This document shows, one piece after another, positions 7,170 to 31,754 of a DNA stretch of 50,203 bases. The position numbers were made by a program, and so were the translations under genes. Origin of the DNA: Bacillota bacterium. Its GTDB lineage: Bacteria; Sysuimicrobiota; Sysuimicrobiia; Sysuimicrobiales; Segetimicrobiaceae. How positions within the stretch are numbered: the stretch's first letter is position 1; each line of letters begins with the position of its first letter. The notes beneath the pieces were generated by a model. It searched no databases. It had not been told where the DNA came from and was given only the letters and a program-made list of their open reading frames with translations. The DNA lies in assembly GCA_021324975.1 (NCBI GenBank), contig JAJPIA010000094.1, positions 1 through 50,203 of the forward strand. The letters run 5' to 3'.

Positions 7170-7370
7170 AAGTTCGCCGCTAAACGGGGAACATAGCTTA
7201 GTAGAAGCGAGTTCGAGTCGCGACATCGCGGCAACGCACAACGTGCCGAATCCCCGAGGACCGTGCGGGGAACGGGGGACCCAAGTTTTGTGGGGCGTAG
7301 CCTGTGTGTGCGCGCAGGCAGGGCAAGTCTCTCGGCCCGAGCCCGTCAGCTAACCCCGTAGGCATCGAGA
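7170..7370 (+). promoter_or_regulatory. ydaO/yuaA-type c-di-AMP riboswitch
   Basis: The leader contains the conserved blocks of the ydaO motif in order: CGCCGCTAAAC near 7175, CCGAATCC at 7246-7253, GGGGAACGGGGGACCCAA at 7267-7284, a GGGGCG strand near 7292, and GTCAGCTAACCCCGTAGGC at 7345-7363. This aptamer class binds cyclic di-AMP and normally turns expression off by favouring a terminator. A strong intrinsic terminator follows within about 25 bases, and the next gene encodes an osmolyte-synthesis enzyme, matching the class's known link to osmoprotection and potassium balance. The block assignment is from memory of the consensus; the ends are approximate. Confidence 0.92.
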
Positions 7371-7391
7371 GAAGGCCAGCCGGGCCCTGAA

Positions 7392-24569: not shown

Positions 24570-24818
24570 TCAGGCCCGGCTGGCGAAGAGGCCTTGGAGG
24601 ACCTCCTCGGGCTCCGGCCGCCGGCCCGTCTCCTTTTTCGAAAACACGAGACGCCCGTTTGCGGACACCTCGAATACCCCTCCTGAGGACGGGATCAAGC
24701 GCAGCGAGCGAACGTCTTGCGGCTTTTCTTTGAGGATCGACTCCGTCACACGGACGGCGTGGCCGAGGTACCCTCAACTCGTGCAGTATTCGATGGTCAC
24801 GTCGAGCTTATCTGCCAC
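24570..24818 (-). CDS. SelW/Rdx-like selenoprotein (in-frame UGA as Sec, CxxU)
   Basis: Reading through one UGA gives an 82-residue protein: start GTG 24818 (GGGGAGG seven bases upstream), UGA at 24776-24774 as residue 15, stop TGA at 24572-24570. The N-terminus is VTIEYCTSUGY: a beta-strand followed by Cys12-x-x-Sec15, the hallmark of the Rdx (SelW/SelT/SelH) thioredoxin-like family. The rest fits the small SelW fold, with GGVFEVSANGRLVFSKKETG as the two-strand hairpin and EEVLQGLFA as the last helix. A hairpin downstream of the UGA resembles a bacterial SECIS. The alternative is a pseudogene or a UGC-to-UGA error. No selA, selB or selC is in the window. Probable thiol-redox role in the cytosol. 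Confidence 0.8.
24743..24776 (-). promoter_or_regulatory. putative bacterial SECIS element
   Basis: After the UGA (24776-24774) and 16 intervening bases, CCGTC and GACGG form a 5-bp stem around the loop CGTGT (24757-24743). Distance to the loop (about 21 bases) and a G among the first two loop bases match the loose rules for bacterial SECIS hairpins that bind SelB. The stem is short, so this is suggestive only. Confidence 0.5.
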
Positions 24819-24900
24819 GTTTTCACCTCCCCAGGCGACGATATAATCCTCGTCTACATGTAACGTCCGGAAAGGCCCCCTGCATCCGGGGCGGCATGCG

Positions 24901-24929: not shown

Positions 24930-25339
24930 TTGTGCAGGCGGTGAGGCCTGTTGCCCGGGATGGCGGGTCGGGCTGAAGACGCGGTTTGAGTCATGAGAGC
25001 CTGCCCCGGTCAGGGTTTGCATTCGTTGGGTGGGTCCGAGTACTCCGCGCAGCGGGAACTAGACCGGTCGATCCCTGGTCCGTCATTGGGCCTGGCGGGT
25101 CGTTCACGGGAGATCCGCGTTCGGACTTCGGTGTGACCGGCTGAACATGAAATGCGGCGAGAAGGGTGTAGGATTGCTTCCGATCGGGTATGTGTGTTCA
25201 TAGAGGCGAGCACGTGACACATCAACTACTCGGGCCTCGGTTTCTCCGTGGACCCACCACACATGAATGATTGATTGATTGTCCCTCATGAGGCGTCCTG
25301 GACGCGTATTAGCATACAGCGAGCATGGAGGTCATCACG
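24930..25339 (+). other. long untranslated leader or unannotated RNA
   Basis: The 410 bases between the promoter and the cold-shock-domain gene contain no convincing reading frame and no RNA family that I recognise. Cold-shock genes often carry long structured leaders, so a 5' UTR is the simplest reading; an independent small RNA is also possible. Confidence 0.35.
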
Positions 25340-25822
25340 ATGGCTCAGCAATTGGATCGAATCGAACAGATGCTTCGCGCGTTGTGCGCCCATTTGGGCG
25401 TACGCGAACGTGATCTGGAACAGATGGTGACATCTACCAACGGAGCCGACTCCGCAGTCGGCGACGGCCGCCGCTATATGGGCGTGGTGTCTCGCTTCGA
25501 GCATGGGTGGGGCTTTATCGAGTGCGAGGCCATGAACCGCAACTTCTTCGTGCACTACAGTGATATCGAAGGCACCGGCCTCCGGTCACTCGAAGCAGGC
25601 GAGGGGGTGTCGTTCGAGATCGCGCCTGGGAAAGACGGCCGCCCAAAGGCGGTCAAGGTCAAGCGCCATGGGAGCGCGCGATCGGCGCAGAGACCGGCGC
25701 GAATCGAAGCAATTCCCCGGCGGGCGCCGATCGCTTACACCAACGGCGACGAGGCGATGGACACGGAAGAGGACGCCGACGAGCAGGACATGCCGCAGCC
25801 GACCGGGCCGACGCTGCCCTAG
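25340..25822 (+). CDS. cold-shock-domain protein with extended ends
   Basis: 160 residues, longer than the 65-70 of a plain Csp. An N-terminal helix (QLDRIEQMLRALCAHLGV, possible coiled coil) precedes a cold-shock domain at about residues 45-107. RNP1 reads HGWGFIEC (usual KGFGFI) and RNP2 reads FFVHYSDI, so RNA or single-stranded DNA binding is expected. The C-terminal 50 residues are disordered, basic then acidic (DTEEDADEQD). The ATG at 25340 is preceded by GGAGG at eight bases; the ATG at 25325 overlaps that site and is less likely. A long leader and a good promoter lie upstream. Confidence 0.85.
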   Translation: MAQQLDRIEQMLRALCAHLGVRERDLEQMVTSTNGADSAVGDGRRYMGVVSRFEHGWGFIECEAMNRNFFVHYSDIEGTGLRSLEAGEGVSFEIAPGKDGRPKAVKVKRHGSARSAQRPARIEAIPRRAPIAYTNGDEAMDTEEDADEQDMPQPTGPTLP

Positions 25823-26467: not shown

Positions 26468-28207
26468 CTAGTCGTTGAACTCGCGACCGGCTCGCACCTC
26501 CTTGACGTAACCGACACGAATGACGAAGTCGCCAAAGCGCTCGGCCGGGAGCCGCTCGGCGGCGTAGCGTCGAATGACCGGCGCGAGCGCGTCCAGGATC
26601 TGCGCCTCCCCCACGTTGTCCAGGAACAGCTTGTTGAGCCGCTGGCCGTGAAACCCGCCGCCGAGATACACGTTGTATCTGCCGGGCGCGCGCCCCGTGA
26701 ACCCGATCTCGGCGACGTACGGGCGCGAGCACCCGTTGGGGCAGCCGCTCATTCGAATGATAATAGGGTCGCGCTCGAGCCCGCACGATGACGCGATGGC
26801 CTCGAGCTTGGTGATGAGGGACGGGAGGTAGCGCTCGCTCTCCGCCATCGCCAGCCCGCACGTCGGCAGCGCGACGCACGCGACCGCGTGGCGGCGAAGG
26901 ACGCTCTGCCGCGCAGGATTCATGGCCCCATGCCCCTCAAGGATGCGCTCGATCTGGCTGCGGTGCTCGCTCGGGACGTTGGCCACGATCACGTTCTGGT
27001 TCGGCGTGAGGCGGAACTCGCCCGTGTGGATGCCCGCGATCTCGCGGAGGGCCGTCATCAATTGCAGGCCCTCGGCGTCTCGGACCCGCCCGTTTTCCAC
27101 GAAGACCGTGTAGTGCCAGTGGCCGTTCAGCGCCTTGGACCAGCCGTAGCGGTCGCTGTTGGTGTCGAACCGGAATGGCCTCGCGTCCGCGAGACGCCAG
27201 CCAAGGCGTCGATGCAGCTCGTCGCAGAACCACTCCAGCCCGCGGTCGTCGATCGTGTACTTCAGGCGCGCGTGCTTCCTGTCGACGCGATCGCCGTAGT
27301 CACGCTGGATGCCGACGACCTGTTCGGCAACCGCGACAACCCCCTCCGGGGCGCAAAATCCGATCACATCCGCAAGCCGCGGGTAGGTGGCGGGTTCGTT
27401 GTCGGTGCGCCCCATGCCGCCGCCGACGCTGACGTTGAAGCCCGCCAGCCGCTCGCCGTCGGCGATCGCGATGAACCCAAGGTCTTGCGTGTAGATGTCG
27501 ACGTCGTTGATCGGCGGCACGACCAGGGCCAGCTTGAACTTCCGGGGCAGGTACGTGCGGCCGTAGATGGGCTCCTCTTCACGGTCGCCGCCTGCGACCG
27601 GCGTTTCGTCCAACCAGATTTCGTGGTAGGCGCGTGTTCGCGGGAGCAGCGCGTCGCTGAGCTGCTTCGCCAGCGGATACACCTGTGCGTGGACTGCCGA
27701 CTGGTCGGGGTTCGGCGAGCACATCACGCCGCGATTGTCGTCGCCGCAGGCGCCGATCGTGTCCAGGAGCGTCGCGTTGATCCGCTGGATCGTTTCTTTC
27801 AGGTTCCGCTTCAGCACGCCGTGGAATTGAAACGTCTGCCGCGTCGTGAGCCGGAGGGTGCGGTCGGCGTGTTCGCGCGCCAGCGCGTCCAGCTTGAGCC
27901 ACTGGTCGGGCCGGCACGTGCCGCCGGGCAGGCGCACGCGCACCATGAACTGGTACGCGGGCTCCAATTTCTGCCGGCGCCGCTCGGCGCGAAGATCGCG
28001 GTCGTCCTGCTGGTAGACCCCATGGAATTTGAGAATCTGCGGCGCCTCATCCCCGGGAATCGCACCGGTCAGCGGGTCGACCAGGCCCTCCGCGATGGAG
28101 CCGCGGAGGTAGCGGCTCTCGGCTTTGATCGTCTCGTTGGGGTGCAACCGTTCCAAGGGTTGGCTGAGGTCCCGGCTCCGGTCCGTGCCACGATGCGCCG
28201 TCGTCAT
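26468..28207 (-). CDS. cysI: sulfite reductase hemoprotein beta-component
   Basis: Sirohaem and Fe4S4 enzyme that reduces sulfite to sulfide with six electrons, 579 residues, close to the family norm. Cofactor cysteines are visible as [16 protein letters not shown] and [10 protein letters not shown]. Other landmarks are [48 protein letters not shown] and [15 protein letters not shown] 28207 has GGAG about eight bases upstream; the open frame to 28297 lies inside the end of cysJ. The gap after cysJ is 13 bases, so the subunits are co-transcribed, downstream of the sirohaem genes. Confidence 0.95.
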
Positions 28208-28220
28208 CGTCGCTCTCCGT

Positions 28221-30116
28221 TCAGTAGACGTCGCGTTGATAGCGTCGTTCCCGCTGCAGGCCCTTGACGTACTCCTCCGCGCACGCATGCTCCACATGTC
28301 CCTGCCGCTCCACGATCGCGATCAGCGCCTCGTGGACGGACGGAGCCAAGCGGTCCGCGCTCCCGCACACGTAGAGGTGGGCGCCGTCCTGGAGCCACGC
28401 GTAGACGTCGCGCGCCGCCTCCAGCAGGCGGTGCTGCACGTACATCTTCTCCGGCTGGTCCCGCGAGAACGCCACGTCCATGCGGCTGAGTGCGCCCTCG
28501 CGGAGCGCGCGCTGCCACTCGAGCTGGTAGAGGAAGTCGGTGCGGAAGCGGCGATCCCCGAACAGCAGCCAGCTGCGCCCGGTTGCCCCGATGGCCTGCC
28601 GTTCCTGGACGAACGCGCGGAACGGGGCCACGCCGGTGCCCGCGCCGATCATGATGATGGGCGCCGCGGGGTCTCGGGGCAGCCGAAAGTGCTCGCTCCG
28701 CTCGACGTATACGGGGACGCTCTCACCCACGGCGCGCCGCTCCGCGAGATACGCGGATGCCACTCCTTTGTGTAGCCGCGCGTGCGTCTGGTAGCGCACG
28801 ACGTCGACCGTGAGGTGCGCCTCGTCTGGATACACCGTCAAGCTCGAGGCGACTGAGTAGAGCCGGGGTTCGAGCTTCCGGAGCATGCCGACGAACGCCG
28901 CGCCCTGGAGTCCTTTCACGGGGAACGCGGCGACGACATCGATGATCCGCCGCCCGGCCAGGTACGCTCTGAGACGGCTCTGCTCGTCCGGCCGGCTCAA
29001 CGCGCGAAGCGCTTCCGCCTGGGCAGCATCGCCGTAGCGCGCGACGAAGCGCGGCGTCAGCGTGGTGATTTCATAGTCCGTCGTCAGCGCCCGCGCCAGC
29101 GTGGTCTCGCCCGCGGCACCCGCGACCGCTTCGTCCGGGTTCAGGGCGAGCGTCTCGATCAACTCGTTGACGAGCGCGGGGTCGTTTTCGGCCACAACGC
29201 CGAGCGAGTCCCCGGGCTCATAGATCAACCCGGAGCTGCGGAGCGAGAGTTCGAGGTGTCGCGTCTCCTTATCCGAGCCGCGACCGTTCAACACGAGGCT
29301 GTCGACCATCTCGGCCGGGAACGGCCTCCGGCGGTCGTACGACGGAGCGGCGGGTTCCGTCGCCGGGGCATCGGGGACTAGCGTTCGAACAACGGCCCGT
29401 GCGCCCGACCCGTTGCCGGCCCCGTCCGCCGGCGCACTGCCGTTCGACGTGAGGCGGCCGAGCACTGCCTCCATCCAGGCCTCGGCCGGGTCCTCGTAGT
29501 CGGTGTCGCAGTCGACGCGATCGAGCAACCGGCGGGCTCCGAGCTCTTCCAACCGGCGATCGAAGTCCTTGGCCGTCTGGCAGAAGTGTTCGTAGCTGGA
29601 GTCGCCGAGACCCAGCACGGCAAACGTCGTGCCCTCGAGCCGTGGCGCCTTTCGGCTGTGGAGGAATTCGTAGAAGCCGGCCGCGGGGTCGGGAGGCGCG
29701 CCGTCGCCGTGGGTGGCCGTCACCACGACGAGGCGGGTGACGCTCTTCAGCTCCTGGGATCGAAACATGGCCATATCGACGGCGCGCGCCGAGAGACCGC
29801 AAGCGGTGGCGAATTCGCCCAAGCGCTTCGCTACCGCTGCGGCATGACCGGTCTCCGACCCGTAGAGGATCGTGATCGGCTCAGCGGCAAGTGGCGCGGT
29901 GGACGGTGCCGCCGGGACGTCGGCGCGTCCCTGCAGCGCAACCCCCGCCAGGTAACCGCTGATCCACAGCGCTTCCTCGCGGGACAGCGTTTCAAGGAGT
30001 GCCTCGAGTTGTCCGGCGTGCCCAGCCGTGAGCGGAACCCCCGGCCCGAGGAGCACGCCAGGTGCCTGACCAGGCCGGCGCAGCGCGGAGTCTCCCAGGG
30101 TGTCGCTCCTCCTCAT
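28221..30116 (-). CDS. cysJ: sulfite reductase [NADPH] flavoprotein alpha-component
   Basis: Diflavin reductase of 631 residues passing electrons from NADPH through FAD and FMN to CysI. Domains in order: N-terminal extension, flavodoxin-like FMN domain (about 78-225, with [12 protein letters not shown] and [11 protein letters not shown]), FAD domain (about 270-480, with [14 protein letters not shown] and RLYSVASSL), and NADPH domain (about 490-631, with [14 protein letters not shown] and [11 protein letters not shown]). It ends with the family's aromatic residue (DVY). Its ATG overlaps the stop of the methyltransferase gene as ATGA, so translation is probably coupled. Confidence 0.95.
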
Positions 30117-31027
30117 ACTTCTTCAGACCATCGCCCGCGGCATGCGGCCGGGGCCGGCACCGGAAGCCTCGTACGGGCGGGCACGACTGATCGGGCATCG
30201 AGCAGTGCGTGCGATCGCGGCGCGGGCGGGATCGGGATCGCGCTCGGGCTCGGGGAATCCCCGGGAATGCGGCGTTCGGGCGCGAACCAACGCAACGTCT
30301 GCCCCAGGCGCGCCACGTCCCCGACGATGAGCACGGTGGGCGCCGGCAGCGCCGCTGCGCCCACACGCTGCGCAATCGTCCCGAGCGTGCCGGTGATGGT
30401 GATCTGCCGCGGGGTCGTCCCGACGCTCACAACCGCCGCCGGTGTGCGGACGTCGCGCCCGTGAGCGATCAAGCACCGGCACGTCTCGGGAAGCGTCCGC
30501 AGGCCCATGAGCACCACCAGCACGGGCATTCGCGCCAGCGCGCTCCAATCGAGAGCCGGCCGGTTGCCGCCCACCTGGCCCGTGACGACCGCGAAGGCGG
30601 AGCCGTGCCGCCGGTGGGTGACGGGGATGCCCGCGTACGCCGGCACCGCGATCGCCGCGGTCACGCCCGGGACCACCTCAAAGCGAACGCCGGCGGAGCG
30701 CAGCGCTTCGCACTCTTCGCCGCCGCGGCCAAACACGAAGGGATCCCCTCCCTTGAGCCGTACGACGGTCGACCCCGCGCGGGCGCGGTCGATCAACAAG
30801 GCATTGATTTGATCCTGGCGTAGCGTGTGGTGCCCCGGTCGCTTGCCCGCGTAAATGAGCTCCGCCGCGTGCGGGGCTTCCCGGACGAGTGTCGGGTGGG
30901 CGAGCCGATCGTAGACGACCACGTCCGAGGCGCGGAGGACCTCGAGCCCGCGCACGGTGATCAATTTGGGATCGCCGGGGCCGGCGCCGACAAGATAGAC
31001 CGTGCCGGGCCGCACCGCGCCGGTCAT
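30113..31027 (-). CDS. cobA: uroporphyrinogen-III C-methyltransferase
   Basis: SAM-dependent enzyme that methylates uroporphyrinogen III twice to precorrin-2, the first step of sirohaem synthesis, here serving CysI. About 304 residues, a little longer than the usual 260 because of a basic C-terminal tail. Signatures: [49 protein letters not shown] and [13 protein letters not shown]. The start is ATG 31027. The gene overlaps cysJ by 4 bases and follows the precorrin-2 dehydrogenase gene by 85 bases. Confidence 0.93.
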
Positions 31028-31112
31028 GGATCCTGCTCCGGAGACCGCGCTTTGCACGGTAACGTTGGAGATGACACGGTGCCGGCACCCGTGACGCTGC
31101 CCGTGACCGGCA

Positions 31113-31754
31113 TTACCGGTCCGCTCCCGCGCGGACCAACGATGCGAGCCGCTCTCGCGCTCCCGCCGCGTCGCCGCGTCGCACATGGTCGAGCGCATCC
31201 GAATCAACGAGGCGGTACCACAAGGCTGCGCGGCGAGCGGGATCAGGCTCGCGTGCCGTGACCGCGGGCCGCAGCTCGCCCAGGATCTCGAGGAGAACCC
31301 CGTACTCCGGGCCGACGAGCTTGGCGATGCGGTTTCGCAGGCGGACGGCGAGCGCGGGGCTCTTGCCGGCGGTAGAGACGGCGATGGCGAGTTCGCCCTG
31401 GCGATGGATGGCCGGCGCGATGAAATGACAGTGCGGGGCGTCGTCCACGGCGTTGACGAGGACACGTTCGTCGGTGGCTTCATCCCACACGGCTGAGTGC
31501 GTCCCACGGTCGCCCGCGGCGATCGCCAGGAACGCTCCTTTGAGATCACCGCGCCGGTACGCGCGCCTGATGATCTCGACGCGTCCCTCCGAAGCGAGGG
31601 CATGCAGCGGGGGCGTGACCGAGTCGGCGATCACCACGACGCGTGCCCTCGCCTCCAACAATCCAAGAGCTTTTTGATGGGCGACCGGTCCACCGCCCAC
31701 CACGACACAGCGCCGTCCGGCGAGGTCAAGCGCGACGGGATAGTAACGGCTCAC
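31113..31754 (-). CDS. cysG: precorrin-2 dehydrogenase / sirohydrochlorin ferrochelatase
   Basis: 213 residues matching the N-terminal half of CysG (CysG-B, SirC/Met8p type), which oxidises precorrin-2 with NAD and in many cases inserts iron to make sirohaem. It begins [20 protein letters not shown], an NAD-binding fold, followed by [20 protein letters not shown] and ISTAGKSPA-like [19 protein letters not shown]. The start is GTG 31754, which overlaps the stop of a small upstream frame as GTGA; its own ribosome site is weak, so coupling is plausible. It is the first large gene of the sulfite operon. Confidence 0.92.

Follow-up and report, generated by a model that had tools for sequence, protein, structure and literature searches.

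A SelW-like selenoprotein gene with a predicted selenocysteine codon and SECIS hairpin in a genome of the phylum Sysuimicrobiota

The gene and its predicted product

The window considered here (the whole stretch of DNA analysed, 50,203 nucleotides) carries on its minus strand a short gene that, with very little doubt, encodes a SelW-like selenoprotein, in which the in-frame UGA at codon 15 would be decoded as selenocysteine (Sec). The initial annotation had proposed this decoding, and it is supported, at the level of sequence, by the conservation of the UGA, by a bacterial SECIS element and by the presence of the Sec machinery in the host genome. The main features of the gene are as follows.

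24570..24818, minus strand: predicted SelW-like (Rdx family, PF10262) selenoprotein gene, 82 codons plus stop
24818 (GTG) and 24570-24572 (UGA), minus strand: start codon and stop codon, the latter followed by UAG
24826..24830, minus strand: Shine-Dalgarno sequence GGAGG, ending 7 nt upstream of the GTG start
24783..24785, minus strand: Cys12 codon TGC, opening residue of the CxxU motif
24774..24776, minus strand: in-frame UGA, codon 15, predicted to be read as selenocysteine

The coordinates proposed initially are correct for an 82-codon frame running across one UGA, and the strand, which had been left unstated, is minus. Translated with TGA as U, 24570-24818(-) reads VADKLDVTIEYCTSUGYLGHAVRVTESILKEKPQDVRSLRLIPSSGGVFEVSANGRLVFSKKETGRRPEPEEVLQGLFASRA. 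The redox motif, Cys12-Thr-Ser-UGA15-Gly-Tyr, is exactly the one that had been claimed, and it contains the only internal UGA of the gene. The good ribosome site noted earlier corresponds to the GGAGG sequence, and a GGAGG-like sequence is also found upstream of the start in most relatives of the gene.

In the proposed mechanism, a stem-loop located after UGA15 would bind SelB carrying Sec-tRNA-Sec, and UGA15 would then be read as selenocysteine rather than as a stop. The product, 82 residues long, would fold like thioredoxin, its Cys12-x-x-Sec15 redox centre lying where the first strand ends. Its most likely role is that of a small thiol/selenol oxidoreductase, with a selenenylsulfide formed in the course of its cycle. 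The chain leading from UGA, through SECIS and SelB/Sec-tRNA, to a CxxU redox protein is well known from bacteria (PMC1794560), and a 2026 review describes SELENOW-like proteins as predicted with high confidence and largely uncharacterised (PMC13188914).

Family and fold

Assignment to the Rdx/SelW family was upheld by the profile alignment that had been suggested as a check on it. With U entered as C for the profile programs, the product matched the Pfam Rdx profile with E = 9.5e-22 (77.4 bits, for a cut-off of 22.6) over residues 7-75, a stretch that spans the UGA, and it scored above the cut-off for NCBIfam TIGR02174 (CXXU_selWTH; 70.9 bits vs 34.2). The cut-off for the SelTWH_Campy equivalog (NF041051) was missed, at 80.8 vs 88 bits, and the product is, thus, filed in the broad Rdx family rather than in this equivalog. 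Relatives with solved structures were recovered by sequence search (2fa8 at 6e-12).

The structure of the product was predicted with AlphaFold (five models, with input homologues derived from the loci described below). The model (pLDDT 86.6) has a strand at residues 5-12 (E5-12) and a helix at residues 18-31 (H18-31), in a thioredoxin-like fold with the CxxU motif at the end of strand 1, consistent with the fold expected from the outset. The model matched crystal structures of the SelW family with a TM score of 0.89 (E 5e-10), and the TM score to 2fa8 was 0.89; SelW-family structures from Agrobacterium, Pseudomonas, Bordetella, Vibrio and Streptomyces gave values of about 0.85-0.90. Weaker matches, to MIEN1, mouse SelW and thioredoxins, followed these bacterial proteins.

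Conservation of the UGA codon

Loss of the codon in close relatives had been named as a finding that would speak against Sec decoding, and it was looked for in a set of 88 loci comprising eight genes from the same bacterial family and the best 80 of 213 relatives among genome contigs (four of the loci duplicate others). The homologous codon is TGA at 88/88 loci, including all eight same-family matches, and Cys12 is encoded by TGC or TGT at 88/88. Together with the Rdx match across the UGA, this agreement in the TGA goes far past anything expected by chance. These loci are drawn from many phyla, and the protein encoded downstream of the TGA is conserved, with PSSGGVFE invariant. Cysteine occupies the homologous site in nine other Rdx homologues. 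No relative of the gene was found on the viral contigs searched.

Within the same bacterial family, 8/12 genomes possess a SelW-like gene, each with one TGA. No Rdx gene was found in the other four (4/12), though selB is present there, and the gene is therefore not essential. Across the phylum Sysuimicrobiota (43 genomes), an Rdx gene was found in 19 genomes, 18 of which have the UGA form and one the Cys form. A tRNA-Sec scored above the cut-off in 16 of the 18 genomes with a UGA-type Rdx gene, the two exceptions being G009, with a completeness of 68%, and G032, where a full selB (361 bits) lies near a contig end. In the phylum as a whole, tRNA-Sec was above the cut-off in 36/43 genomes and selB was above its own cut-off in 31/43. 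Sec decoding is, thus, widespread in this poorly cultured phylum.

The SECIS element

A hairpin had been reported to begin 17 bases after the UGA, and its position was confirmed.

24743..24757, minus strand: upper stem-loop of the predicted bacterial SECIS, CCGUC-CGUGU-GACGG, with a 5-bp stem and a 5-nt loop

Published rules for bacterial SECIS elements (bSECIS) specify a loop of 3-9 nt, an upper stem of 4-16 bp, a G in the first two loop positions, a distance of 16-37 nt from the UGA and a minimum free energy (MFE) of <= -7.5 kcal/mol (PMC13188914). The hairpin agrees with these rules: the loop is CGUGU, the stem has 5 bp, the distance from the UGA to the loop is 21 nt and the local fold has an energy of -7.8 kcal/mol. 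This value was obtained for the 28 nt around the hairpin folded alone, a context in which the SECIS register wins, with a pair probability of 0.72; longer folding contexts favour a shifted stem, and the SECIS register is not the MFE structure there. Taken by itself, the folding energy of this one sequence does not reach significance (z -0.9 to -1.6); the case for a SECIS therefore rests on comparative evidence.

In the eight genes of the family, the wobble base is unvaried at each of the five codons 21-25, vs 6% of codons elsewhere, and the full stem is present in 8/8 genes, vs 1.6 expected from synonymous resampling. In an unselected set of genes, a SECIS-like hairpin was found in 72/83, whereas 500 within-gene synonymous permutations gave 27.9 on average and never more than 39. 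With the register fixed, the covariation score of the unselected set (0.354) exceeded those of all 300 permutations (maximum 0.344). Compensatory changes were seen in 4/5 pairs among 35 genes with the same register, counts that are inflated because these rows were selected for having the stem; weight is therefore placed on the tests with unselected genes. The full stem was found in 0/9 Cys homologues in the same register and in 2/2 UGA homologues from the same plasmid search as these Cys controls. By sequence comparison, the hairpin is identified as a bacterial SECIS element; the SECIS check proposed for the region downstream of the UGA thus succeeded on the published rules and on comparative support, and not on energy alone.

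Selenocysteine machinery of the host genome

The genome containing the window is that of a soil bacterium; its assembly is fragmented (4.43 Mb in 144 contigs), with an estimated contamination of 4.75%. SelA, SelB, SelD and tRNA-Sec had been predicted to accompany the gene, and all four genes (selA, selB, selC and selD) were found. The tRNA-Sec scored 74.3 bits and was called by ARAGORN as tRNA-SeC with the anticodon tca (UCA); selA (535 bits) and selB (336 bits) lie on the same contig as this tRNA. On another contig, selD (380 bits; 34566-35486 of C97) has an in-frame TGA, and its product reads ...VACAGUASKLSP..., with the UGA at the catalytic Cys/Sec site, such that SelD, too, appears to contain selenocysteine. 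The same genome encodes a formate dehydrogenase-like molybdopterin subunit (23310-24581 of C126) that reads ...CNRTUHAPSV..., its UGA falling where Sec is classically found. The Sec system therefore appears to be used by at least three genes of the host, those for the SelW-like protein, SelD and formate dehydrogenase.

The nearest named relatives are Centralia MAG_47 (93% identical) and ANGP1 (74%), the latter classified as Candidatus Segetimicrobium, phylum Sysuimicrobiota. Going by these matches, the window would itself come from a member of Segetimicrobiaceae. This phylum is the former CSP1-3 (PMC11604079).

Alternative readings of the UGA

The internal TGA could have arisen in a pseudogene, or through a sequencing error, from a Cys codon that was mutated or misread; a single-base change is sufficient to convert TGC or TGT into TGA, and the assembly is fragmented. 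However, the TGA is common to the 88/88 homologous loci, from many phyla, and is followed by a conserved protein (including the invariant PSSGGVFE) and a conserved SECIS. The probability of this explanation is close to nil, and it was refuted by the sharing of the TGA between independent genomes. The open frame across the UGA would also fit a reading of the codon as tryptophan or another residue, via a changed code or a suppressor tRNA, but this is exceedingly improbable, given that the gene's own stop is UGA, that the internal UGA lies at the redox position of the family, where the Cys homologues have cysteine, and that tRNA-Sec, SelA, SelB and SelD are present in the genome.

UGA15 might, alternatively, be a true stop, in which case a leader peptide of 14 residues would be made, together with the product of a second ORF further downstream. 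In the host genome, UGA also serves as an ordinary stop codon, and termination at Sec codons under low selenium is a general property of the system. This reading is nevertheless very unlikely: a protein begun downstream of UGA15 would be missing strand 1 and the active site, which the Rdx profile (residues 7-75) and the fold require, and codons 21-25 show, at their synonymous sites, the constraint that a SECIS should impose. The internal UGA almost certainly inserts selenocysteine, judging from these comparisons.

Annotation gaps and genomic neighbourhood

Genes of this kind had been expected to escape standard gene callers, and two plasmid records bear this out. In Thermomicrobium roseum, the annotated start of the Rdx CDS (WP_012642931.1; L129:301-537) lies past its UGA, resulting in a truncated protein without the active site. 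On a plasmid of Cytobacillus spongiae (L137:301-504), a UGA-containing SelW homologue adjoins selD and is unannotated. UGA-containing genes can, thus, vanish or be shortened in automatic annotation.

The gene has a divergent neighbour, which may be regarded as context only.

25325..25822, plus strand: divergent neighbour of selW, predicted to encode a cold-shock-domain protein extended at its N terminus

Two relatives (L030 and L032) retain the pairing of selW with this gene, which was not seen in a third. Elsewhere in the window, a c-di-AMP riboswitch of the ydaO/yuaA type (90 bits) is found at 7234-7378, and a minus-strand cluster at 26468-31603, with a sulfite/nitrite reductase, a flavodoxin-type reductase and a tetrapyrrole methylase, resembles an operon for assimilatory sulfite reduction.

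A SelW form with two UGA codons

A SelW with two in-frame UGAs, reading EYUAEUEYQ (UxxU), is encoded by L127:1486-1725 and by the homologous stretch of L128, both from one genus of the same order. Seven codons distinguish the two coding sequences, and six of these changes are synonymous; the SECIS stem is intact. For the SelW-like domain, a 2026 inventory of prokaryotic selenoproteins gives only CxxU with one Sec, and UxxU is unlisted (PMC13188914). On balance, the sequences favour an origin of the UxxU form (U-A-E-U) from CxxU by a Cys-to-UGA change within the order, and the two UGAs, 9 nt apart, may share a single SECIS, which would yield a diselenide SelW. The patchy distribution of SelW and this UxxU variant provide natural comparisons for determining what Sec adds to a small redox fold.

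Comparison with known systems

SelW-like CxxU selenoproteins have been catalogued in bacteria since at least 2006, when a survey noted that organisms using Sec have few Cys homologues of SelW-like proteins, or none (PMC1794560). Selenium is absent from the main text of the 2024 paper defining Sysuimicrobiota (PMC11604079), and no paper linking CSP1-3 with selenoproteins was found in the searchable literature. As far as this literature shows, the novelty lies in the report of a SelW-like selenoprotein from Sysuimicrobiota, the protein family being already known.

Mammalian SelW (2npb) and MIEN1 (2ljk) belong to the same superfamily and have the redox motif at the same position, but are distant (TM 0.65-0.74). 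In eukaryotes, the SECIS is located in the 3' UTR and differs in structure from the bacterial element. The Cys-type Rdx structures from Agrobacterium (2fa8), Pseudomonas (2oka/2obk) and Streptomyces (3dex) have the same fold (TM about 0.85-0.90); these proteins have CxxC, whereas the window protein has CxxU, and the Cys homologues examined have no SECIS stem. The closest counterparts are the bacterial SelW-like (SELENOW-like) proteins (PF10262 / TIGR02174), which share with the window protein the domain, the CxxU motif, a single Sec and the thioredoxin-like fold (PMC1794560, PMC13188914). The bSECIS directly follows the UGA in both. The window protein is about 93% identical to the nearest relative; with other members of its family it shares 65-75% identity, and 45-60% beyond the family. 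The gene differs from known bacterial SelW-like genes only in its sequence and in its host lineage (Sysuimicrobiota, Segetimicrobium-like).
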